From: Candidatus Saccharimonadota bacterium | GTDB taxonomy: Bacteria; Patescibacteriota; Saccharimonadia; Saccharimonadales; 2-12-FULL-41-12 | Direction of reading: 5' to 3' | Length of the DNA: 39,583 nt | NCBI GenBank assembly: GCA_022842995.1 | Contig: JALHOM010000009.1 | Coordinates: 18,235 to 57,817, forward strand | In this document: positions 13,641-38,010 of the stretch, piece by piece | Layout of the letters: every line of letters starts with the position of its first letter | Numbering within the stretch: position 1 is the stretch's first letter | Made by a program: the position numbers and the translations under genes | Notes under the pieces: model-generated | Databases searched by the model: none | What the model saw: only the letters and a program-made list of their open reading frames with translations | Told to the model about the DNA's origin: nothing

Positions 13641-14132
13641 TTAAGCTTCTTTTGGAACTTCGGTCTTGTCGGAGGCTTCTGCTTTTGGCGCTGAAGTTTC
13701 GGCTTCGTTTTCGCTAACAGGAGCAGCTTCTTCGACGACAACAGGAGCTGGCTTCTCTTCAACAGTATTGACTGCTTGTTTGTCAAAGTCGACGGCAGCC
13801 AAACGCGCTGATTTACCGGTTCGCTCACGCATGTAAGTTAAGTATTTGCGACGAACTTTAGATCGCTTAACAACCTCAACCTTTTCAACCAATGGACTGT
13901 GCATAAGGTAGGTCTTCTCTACCCCAATACCACTGGCGATTCGGCGAACGGTAATGCTGCTGGTGTGGCTGCTTTTGCGGTCGGTTCGAATAACCAGGCC
14001 TTCAAAAACCTGGATACGCTCTTTGCTACCTTCTTTAATCTTTTGGTGAACACGAACAGTGTCGCCACTCTGAACATTGACGACATCGTGCTTTTTGAAC
14101 TTGGCTTCGATAGCCGAAATTACTGATGACAT
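13641..14132 (-). CDS. rplS: 50S ribosomal protein L19 with A/P/E-rich C-terminal tail
   Basis: VHQKIKEGSKERIQVFEGLVIRTDRKSSHTSSITVRRIASGIGVEKTYLMHSPLVEKVEVVKRSKVRRKYLTYMRERTGKSARL. Confidence 0.96.
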   Translation of the reverse strand: MSSVISAIEAKFKKHDVVNVQSGDTVRVHQKIKEGSKERIQVFEGLVIRTDRKSSHTSSITVRRIASGIGVEKTYLMHSPLVEKVEVVKRSKVRRKYLTYMRERTGKSARLAAVDFDKQAVNTVEEKPAPVVVEEAAPVSENEAETSAPKAEASDKTEVPKEA

Positions 14133-14201: not shown

Positions 14202-14490
14202 CTAGAAACTAGAAACTAGAAACTAGAAACTAGAAACTAGAAACTAGCTGAGTATGATTTGTCTGTTTTTGGTTGGCAATAGCAATGTTTTGATTTCTGC
14301 GAATTCCTAATTTCTAGTTTCTAATTTAGAGTTAAGAGGTATGAGTCAAGAGATAAGAGTAGCTCCTAGCTACAAGATACTAGCGACTAGCTACGAGCTC
14401 CTTTCGCCGCAGGCGAATCTTAACTCATGACTCATGACTCATGACTCTCTTGTCCTTCCCCTTTCCTCTTTCGTCTTTTATCTTTAAACT
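14202..14490 (+). repeat. Heptad-periodic mosaic repeat element, copy A (includes (CTAGAAA)6 and ACTCATG x3)
   Basis: Parses into consecutive 7-mers; CTAGAAA x6 at 14202-14243, 56-bp core at 14246-14301, hairpin TTCGCC-GCA-GGCGAA at 14403-14417, ACTCATG x3 at 14423-14443. Confidence 0.9.
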
Positions 14491-14496
14491 AACCCT

Positions 14497-15636
14497 ATGG
14501 ATTACAACGAAATAGCGCTTAAAAAACACCGAGAGCTCAAAGGCAAAATCTCAACCGAACTAAAAGACACCCTCGACACCAAAGATCAACTCAGCATCTA
14601 CTACAGCCCTGGGGTCGGGGCTGTCAGCTCTCACCTGGCAAAGCACCCCGAAGATACTCGGGACTACACGTGGACCGGGAATACAGTCGCCGTCATTTCC
14701 GACGGTTCGGCTGTCTTGGGACTGGGCAATATTGGACCTGAAGCAGCTTTGCCCGTCATGGAGGGTAAGTGCATGTTGTTTAAACACTTTGCCGGGATAA
14801 ACGCCATTCCGATTGTCCTGAATGTTCATACAGCAGACGAAATTGTTGCAACCATTAAAGCCTTGTCGCCAACAATCGGCGCCATCAACCTGGAAGATAT
14901 TGCTGCTCCTCTATGTTTTGAAGTAGAAGATCGCCTCAAAGCCGAACTCTCCATCCCGATATTCCACGACGACCAACATGGCACAGCAGTGGTCGCACTC
15001 GCCGGCCTGATCAATGCCATGAAAGTTACCGGGAAAGACCTAGGAAGTTGCCGAATCGTCGTCAATGGTGTCGGTGCCGCCGGAGTAGCCATCATAAAAC
15101 TCATTAAACTCTATTCCCCAGAAGCGATCATCATTGGCCTTGATAGCAAAGGGATCATTTCGGGCAACCGCACCGACCTCAATGCTTCAAAAAGCATGCT
15201 CCTAACGCAAGACTTAATCGCCTCCGATGTAAACGGCGTCCTCGAGGACTCACTCATAAACGCCGACATTTTCATTGGTGTCAGCCAAGCAAATTTGCTT
15301 GAGGCAAAGCATATCGAAAGCATGTCCAAAGACCCTATTATCTTTGGCCTCGCAAATCCGATTCCTGAAATCATGCCAGATATTGCCAAAAGTGCCGGCG
15401 CAAAAATAGTAGCCACTGGCCGTAGCGACTTCCCGAATCAAGTTAATAACGCTGTCGCTTTCCCGGGGATTTTCAGAGGCGCACTCGATAACGGGGTACG
15501 TAAAATTACCGATAACCACAAACTAGCTGCAGCACGTGCCATCGCCTCGCTTGTCGAAAACCCAACTGAAGATACCATCATTCCCTCGGTTATGGACGAA
15601 CGTTTAGTGCCGTCTATCGCGAAAGTTATCGCGTAA
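14497..15636 (+). CDS. Malic enzyme (NAD(P)-dependent malate dehydrogenase, decarboxylating)
   Basis: YYSPGVGAVSSHLAKHPEDTRDYTWTGNTVAVISDGSAVLGLGNIGPEAALPVMEGKCMLFKHFAGINAIPIVL; FHDDQHGTAVVALAGLINAMK. Confidence 0.96.
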   Translation: MDYNEIALKKHRELKGKISTELKDTLDTKDQLSIYYSPGVGAVSSHLAKHPEDTRDYTWTGNTVAVISDGSAVLGLGNIGPEAALPVMEGKCMLFKHFAGINAIPIVLNVHTADEIVATIKALSPTIGAINLEDIAAPLCFEVEDRLKAELSIPIFHDDQHGTAVVALAGLINAMKVTGKDLGSCRIVVNGVGAAGVAIIKLIKLYSPEAIIIGLDSKGIISGNRTDLNASKSMLLTQDLIASDVNGVLEDSLINADIFIGVSQANLLEAKHIESMSKDPIIFGLANPIPEIMPDIAKSAGAKIVATGRSDFPNQVNNAVAFPGIFRGALDNGVRKITDNHKLAAARAIASLVENPTEDTIIPSVMDERLVPSIAKVIA

Positions 15637-36806: not shown

Positions 36807-37101
36807 GGAATTGGAAATTTGGAACTTGGAAATTTGGAATTAGTAGTGAGTCATGAGACATGAGTTATGAGTTAAGATTCGCCTCCGGCGAAAAAGGTAG
36901 GATAGTAGCTAGCACTAGTATCTAGTAACTAGTAGCTAGATTCTTGGAGTTACTCTTGTCTCTTGACTCTTATCTCATGACTCTAAATTAGGAATTCGAA
37001 ATTAGAAATTTGAAATTGGCAGTAACCCAAAAATCGCTATTGCCAACCACAACCGAATAAAACATACTCAGCTAATTCCTAATTTCTATTTTCTAATTCC
37101 T
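36807..37101 (-). repeat. Heptad-periodic mosaic repeat element, copy B (inverted relative to copy A)
   Basis: On the minus strand: AGGAATT AGAAAAT AGAAATT AGGAATT, then a 56-bp core (37073-37018) matching copy A at 44/56 positions, same order of heptad modules, hairpin TTCGCC-GGA-GGCGAA (36892-36878). Confidence 0.9.
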
Positions 37102-38010
37102 AACCTGGGCTTTGCCCGCGCTACCGAAAGCATCGATCTTTGTCTCGACGACGACCTGCACCGCAGCTATAACTTCGTCCATCAGTTTAATGACAGCAAA
37201 CTCATCAGGGTTTTCATCTAACACCTTTTCGAGAGTGTTTCTAAAGGCCACACGCATATCTGAATTAATATTTATTTTGGAAACACCAATCTTAGCAGCA
37301 CTCACAAAATAGTGCTCTGGGGTTCCGCTACCGCCATGAAGGCTGATATTGCATTCAAGCGTGTCGCGAAGGCGCTGGAGCAACTCCAAGTCCAAGACTT
37401 TTGGAACGGGATATTTCCCATGCAAATTACCAACGGCTGCCGCATAGGTGTCTATACCGGTTGCTTCCACGAAAGCCAAAGAACCCTCAGGCGTGGAAAA
37501 TGTCTTCTTGATTTCTTCGTAGTCAATATTTTCTTTATGAACGTTCGAACTACCCCCAAAATAATGCGGTTCGCTCTCTACCAACGCACCCGTCAACTTG
37601 GCGTATTCGACTATCTGGCGAGTTTCGGCAATGATTTCTTCTTCCGAGGCGTCATGTCGAGCTTGGGAAATATCAATATGGATAAATTCAAAACCGGCTT
37701 CTATGCCGGCAATAGCGTCGGCCACAGTTGGACTATGGTCGAGATTGATATACATTTCTACGCCGTGGGAAACTTTGTAGTTGTCCACCATATCGCGTAT
37801 GTTGTCCAGGCCAAGAGCGTCTACCTCACCCTTGCTGAGCTCTACCATAAGTGGGGATTTTTTAGCCTGCGCGGCAGCGACTACCGCCTTCAGAGTTTCT
37901 TGGTTATCTAAGTTGAAGGCCCCAACGGCAAATTTCTCAGCCCGTGCTCGCTTCATCAAATCTCGAGCATCACTACAATTTTGTCGCATTTCGCGTAAGG
38001 TTAGAGGCAT
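37093..38010 (-). CDS. Class II fructose-bisphosphate aldolase
   Basis: VGAFNLDNQETLKAVVAAAQAKKSPLMVELSKGE, VEMYINLDHSPT, ISLHGGSGTPEHYFVSAAKIGVSKININSDMRVAF. Confidence 0.95.
   Translation of the reverse strand: MPLTLREMRQNCSDARDLMKRARAEKFAVGAFNLDNQETLKAVVAAAQAKKSPLMVELSKGEVDALGLDNIRDMVDNYKVSHGVEMYINLDHSPTVADAIAGIEAGFEFIHIDISQARHDASEEEIIAETRQIVEYAKLTGALVESEPHYFGGSSNVHKENIDYEEIKKTFSTPEGSLAFVEATGIDTYAAAVGNLHGKYPVPKVLDLELLQRLRDTLECNISLHGGSGTPEHYFVSAAKIGVSKININSDMRVAFRNTLEKVLDENPDEFAVIKLMDEVIAAVQVVVETKIDAFGSAGKAQVRN

Follow-up and report, generated by a model that had tools for sequence, protein, structure and literature searches.

What kind of sequence occupies the divergent gap between rplS (13641-14132, minus strand) and the malic enzyme gene (14497-15636, plus strand), and how did it come to be there? 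The gap lies in a window of 39,583 nucleotides, the whole stretch of DNA analyzed here, which is part of contig C9 of a source genome of 1.11 Mb in 30 contigs. Our analysis suggests that the sequence in the gap, copy A, probably belongs to a species-specific family of dispersed non-coding repeats that are similar to MITE or BOX elements and composed of heptad arrays of the STRR type.

Structure of copy A

The first-pass annotation of the window described copy A as a mosaic of several heptamer families filling the gap to within about 6 bp of the malic enzyme start codon. The heptad pattern and the location were both borne out. The 3′ edge of the element is ~6 bp short of the ATG at 14497, and 66 bp of the gap remain, containing a promoter-like site for rplS. 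Lag-7 self-match over 14202-14490 is 0.61, a clear excess over the 0.262 (sd 0.028) of dinucleotide shuffles (z = 12.4), the comparison the annotation had proposed. It is still 0.57 (z = 10.4) when the AGAAACT array is left out. Self-match declines steadily at lags 14, 21, and 28 (0.55, 0.49, and 0.41), and all remaining lags are at background. Perfect units are found at 14202-14247 (6.6 units of CTAGAAA) and at 14423-14447 (3.6 units of ACTCATG). The features of copy A, and the position of a second copy in the window, are as follows.

14202-14490: copy A, whole element, in the divergent gap between rplS and the malic enzyme gene
14202-14247, plus strand: outer heptad array, CTAGAAA x6.6, left arm of hairpin 1, pairs with 14296-14333
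14247-14283, plus strand: conserved non-heptad core, GCTGAGTATG...GGTTGGCAATAGC, 12 copies genome-wide, lag-7 self-match 0.33
14284-14300, plus strand: apical part of hairpin 1, variable in the alignment of core copies
14301-14328, plus strand: AATTCCT / AATTTCT / AGTTTCT heptads, right arm of hairpin 1
14329-14359, plus strand: GAGTTAA-type heptads, left arm of hairpin 2
14360-14401, plus strand: CTAG/AGCT heptads, self-complementary
14403-14417, plus strand: GC hairpin, TTCGCCGCAGGCGAA, a motif found genome-wide in these elements only
14418-14447, plus strand: TTAACTC/ATGACTC heptads, right arm of hairpin 2
14448-14489, plus strand: pyrimidine-rich heptads, TTTCNTCT, ending ~6 bp before the malic enzyme ATG
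36807-37102, minus strand: copy B, whose outer array gives an aldolase gene its stop codon

The arrays of copy A pair with one another. In hairpin 1 the AGAAACT array pairs with the AATTTCT array across the core, and in hairpin 2 the GAG-type and ACTC arrays pair across a middle made of the CTAG array and the GC hairpin. Other copies have this middle replaced by AAAGATT arrays plus a complementary partner of their own. The outer arms are complementary in some copies (25 of 25 bp in the C3 copy, in which the core is missing), and their sequence is not fixed. The elements fold far better than shuffled sequences (z -4.3 to -6.4). This inverted pairing of the arms, together with a location at gene 3′ ends (see below), was absent from the first-pass annotation, and these are the more unusual features of the element.

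The annotation placed all heptamers in one register, without spacers, around a 56-bp core of eight heptads. The array left of the core does keep a single phase relative to it in 12/12 copies, even though it is made up of either AACTAG or AATTAG units, depending on the copy; this constancy despite differing array sequence indicates in-place replacement of units. In the copies with scores for both the AATTTC and the GAG family, these two also keep a constant one-base phase offset, despite differences in core length. The core itself has low lag-7 self-match (0.33 in copy A, 0.37 in copy B) and is not a set of heptads. Its length varies, and the phase of the GC hairpin differs between copies. Thus, core and hairpin are modules separate from the heptad arrays. 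The shared register is that of neighboring heptad arrays and does not run through the core or the GC hairpin, so that the single register holds among adjacent arrays only and the absence of spacers was overstated.

A repeat family in the source genome

A search of the source genome resulted in 55 matches, of which about a dozen are long. Twelve copies of the non-repetitive core (GCTGAGTATGTTTTATTC-n-GTGGTTGGCAATAGC, ~37-45 bp) score 41-63 bits, and all of them lie within the 535 kb from eight contigs that we examined as stretches. The GC hairpin TTCGCCnnnGGCGAA occurs at 8 sites genome-wide, every one within an element, and a version with a four-base loop in two more copies brings the total to about 10 sites. 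Elements are roughly 250-500 bp in length. A multi-copy composite with several heptad families, a conserved core, and a hairpin, as first described, is therefore present in this genome. The same 535 kb contains 27 lag-7 regions, compared with 0-2 at any other lag tested between 4 and 12, and many heptad arrays of the source genome have no core.

Outside of this genome we did not find the core. The sequence model R1 gave nothing above 18.3 bits in 294 other genomes of the order, the exact core pattern was found among GTDB-species contigs on one Buttiauxella contig only, which we take as chance, and there was no match in IMG/VR viral contigs, phages, or plasmids. As judged from these sequence searches, the composite is confined to a single species within the set of genomes covered. 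The further copies that the annotation asked for in the source or related genomes are thus found in the former (12 cores) and not in the 294 other genomes of the order.

Other repeats were seen in passing. A TAACTGA x5 array is located at C1:132118-132265, and this heptamer is one reported from Beggiatoaceae and Cyanobacteria. On contig C8 (~36.4 kb), two close, long near-perfect palindromes are built on GTGACGACCGTCAC at ~1640-1790 of the stretch examined (L022), with differing outer arms. In the window, a trinucleotide run, (AAG)10, separates two convergent ORFs at 1568-1597.

Location at gene ends and a possible role in RNA

Convergent gaps hold 8/12 core copies, versus ~18% of all gaps being convergent; copy A, in a divergent gap, is an exception. 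With the element subtracted, gap lengths are close to those of ordinary gaps of the same type (convergent 30 vs. 46 bp, co-directional 39 vs. 49 bp, divergent 77 vs. 116 bp), and the elements are therefore extra DNA that was added. The median distance from element to gene on gene 3′ sides is about 5 bp, with ORFs called mechanically, so that individual gene ends may be off. Arrays often carry the stop codon of the adjoining gene (GGAAACTAG, AGGAATTAG) or directly follow a stop codon. At copy B, the array at 37093-37102 encodes the C-terminus AQVRN*, stop included, of a class II aldolase (ORF 37093-38010, minus strand). Stop codons are present in most heptad unit types, which explains both the absence of the arrays from coding sequence and their tolerance at gene ends. 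The position of the elements would then reflect where insertion does no harm rather than a selected role in RNA.

The elements could instead act as structured RNA, either at mRNA 3′ ends or in leaders, with a terminator-like, stabilizing, or regulatory effect and with arms selected to pair. The strong folding is consistent with this, as is the finding that the array side faces a gene 3′ end in 10/12 core copies (one doubtful ORF included), and copy A would form the malic enzyme leader. Selection for pairing in one strand of RNA is, however, not visible: like-oriented stems, with strand-symmetric scoring, have 20 G.U versus 28 A.C mismatches and thus no G.U excess, and permuting the heptads within an arm costs only ~3.5% of matches per bp. 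The arms match through their common vocabulary. The GC hairpin lacks the U-tract of a terminator, and Rfam returned no family at gathering score, with two sub-threshold plant microRNA matches only. Given the mismatch counts and permutations, we consider a selected RNA structure to be rather unlikely.

Formation of the mosaic

The annotation also held that simple slippage would not give several families in one phase. We modeled this with a birth-death simulation that starts from random sequence and duplicates and deletes 7-bp blocks, with ~2 substitutions for every duplication. Simulated self-match at lags 7, 14, 21, 28, 35, and 42 is.65,.50,.42,.37,.34, and.31, and in the 13 longest observed regions it is.61,.51,.44,.38,.32, and.31. 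A new family in the simulation is a mutated neighboring unit, and therefore phase is kept automatically. In this model the lag profile of the mosaic is reproduced, which removes the main ground for calling it inexplicable; elaborate multi-family mosaics would need nothing beyond 7-bp duplication and mutation. A simulation with similarity-dependent slippage fit more poorly than unrestricted 7-bp duplication/deletion across the settings tried.

Inverted arms are a different matter. We observed 23 inverted-arm stems, versus 4-12 per set in the duplication-only simulation, and inverted copying is therefore a step additional to duplication. This step may be fold-back copying (template switch) during replication. 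Unit sequences of the element drift, with replacement in place, in a pattern that fits repeated tandem duplication and deletion of 7 bp plus substitution, and this turnover likely made the copies diverge after dispersal.

The arrays might instead have grown independently at each site as 7-bp microsatellites, with no composite ever dispersed. The many arrays without a core, the fit of the simulation, and the finding of the same heptad words in unrelated genomes are all in line with such local growth. Duplication alone yields too few inverted arms, however, and copying is required to place a common non-repetitive core at 12 sites and the same GC hairpin at ~10. Local growth is contradicted for the core-bearing copies, and as an account of the family we think it unlikely; for simple arrays it is likely true.

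Dispersal

The composite repeat may have spread through the genome as a non-autonomous, MITE- or BOX-like element via some copying activity. We did not find target-site duplications (the longest match between flanks is 4.4, against 4.2 for randomly paired flanks) or a linked transposase. The relatives examined belong to other genera and have lost synteny at the copy A locus, so that no empty site was seen.

The core might be a promoter (TTGCCA-17-CATACT, on the other strand relative to copy A) that faces outward and is taken to new sites by the element. It has a sigma-70 match of 9/12 in copy A, and the hexamer-like blocks are retained in most copies. In 9-10 of the 12 copies, however, such a promoter would point antisense into a gene 3′ end, conservation extends to the bases around the hexamers, and at copy A there is a better promoter-like site, that of rplS, just outside the element. 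From its sequence, a promoter function of the core seems quite improbable. Mobilization as a REP/BIME element by a RAYT (TnpA-REP) enzyme is very improbable, even though the element is extragenic with a GC hairpin and the source genome has five Y1_Tnp matches: none of these five Y1/RAYT-like genes adjoins the element's GC hairpin, the clear palindromes that some of them possess are unrelated to it, the GC hairpin is confined to heptad elements, and two heptad-bearing genomes (G099 and G042) have no Y1_Tnp match. The five genes are located on contigs C3, C4, C11, C14, and C18 (L105-L107), and the clear palindromes are near those on C3, C4, and C11.

Comparison with known repeats

The closest parallel to the paired heptads is in the P6b stem of the trnL intron of Nostoc and Calothrix, which has degenerate heptanucleotide repeats of class I (TDNGATT) and class II (NNTGAGT). 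Units of the two arms pair, copy number shifts by 7 nt, and motif class has been switched in place, independently (PMC4476775, PMC3488679). The element described here shares the degenerate 7-nt units (its GAG family is nearly the same as NNTGAGT), the paired arms, the likely change in copy number by 7 nt, and the in-place replacement of unit class. The intron repeats, in contrast, are a single stem of a self-splicing cyanobacterial intron, whereas the element is a dispersed intergenic composite that combines several families with a core and a GC hairpin, and it gives no indication of selection on an RNA strand. Heptad repeats in intergenic DNA are also known, e.g., TAACTGA in Beggiatoaceae (PMC4679880) and GGGAATC/GGGGAYT in Xanthomonas and Nostoc (PMC4692102). 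Like these and the STRRs of cyanobacteria, the units here are 7-bp, tandem, intergenic, and patchy over phyla. The known arrays are single-family and direct, lack a conserved core, and for the most part have no inverted partners, while the element has several families, inverted partners, and a core. It thus agrees with STRRs in its tandem intergenic 7-bp units and departs from them in not being a single family free of other modules.

BOX, MITE, and REP repeats are modular, non-coding, multi-copy, and extragenic, with inverted repeats. The element resembles them in all of these respects and differs in the missing target duplications and linked transposase, and in having arms of drifting heptads rather than fixed termini. 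Its outer arms might count as the terminal inverted repeats of a MITE in those copies where they are complementary. The annotation could name no family for the mosaic. Heptads that pair into stems (PMC4476775) and intergenic heptads are known; the architecture appears to be new, although its kind is not.

Heptad elements in other genomes

Lag-7 regions are scarce in most of the sampled relatives and dense in two genomes, G019 and G106, whose surveyed stretches were picked partly for containing hits. GAG-type arrays were found in 11/295 genomes of the order and RAANTAG arrays in 22/287 genomes of the phylum. Heptad hairpins with different cores or loops are found in other genomes of the phylum (e.g., G019 and loci L168, L171, and L172), and at L168 two heptad families are in one phase. 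Identical heptad words turn up in unrelated genomes. The heptad-element kind is recurrent and patchy across the genomes sampled. G019, which belongs to another family of the order, has many copies of a distinct heptad-hairpin family with the loop TATATTTTTAAAAACTA (L031-L040). In the openly accessible literature, we found no account of such elements for Patescibacteria.

Seven-base units dominate among bacterial tandem repeats. The multi-copy, internally replicated arrays of the source genome allow 7-bp turnover, inversion, and insertion to be distinguished from one another, and they are found in a streamlined genome that tolerates large non-coding additions at its gene ends. We suggest, tentatively and as a minority possibility, that Patescibacteria share an active process in which 7-bp block duplication and inverted copying have repeatedly built lineage-specific hairpin mobile elements with new cores. 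If so, the source genome, G019, and others would carry elements of a class in which the arms undergo constant rewriting while pairing and 7-bp phase persist.
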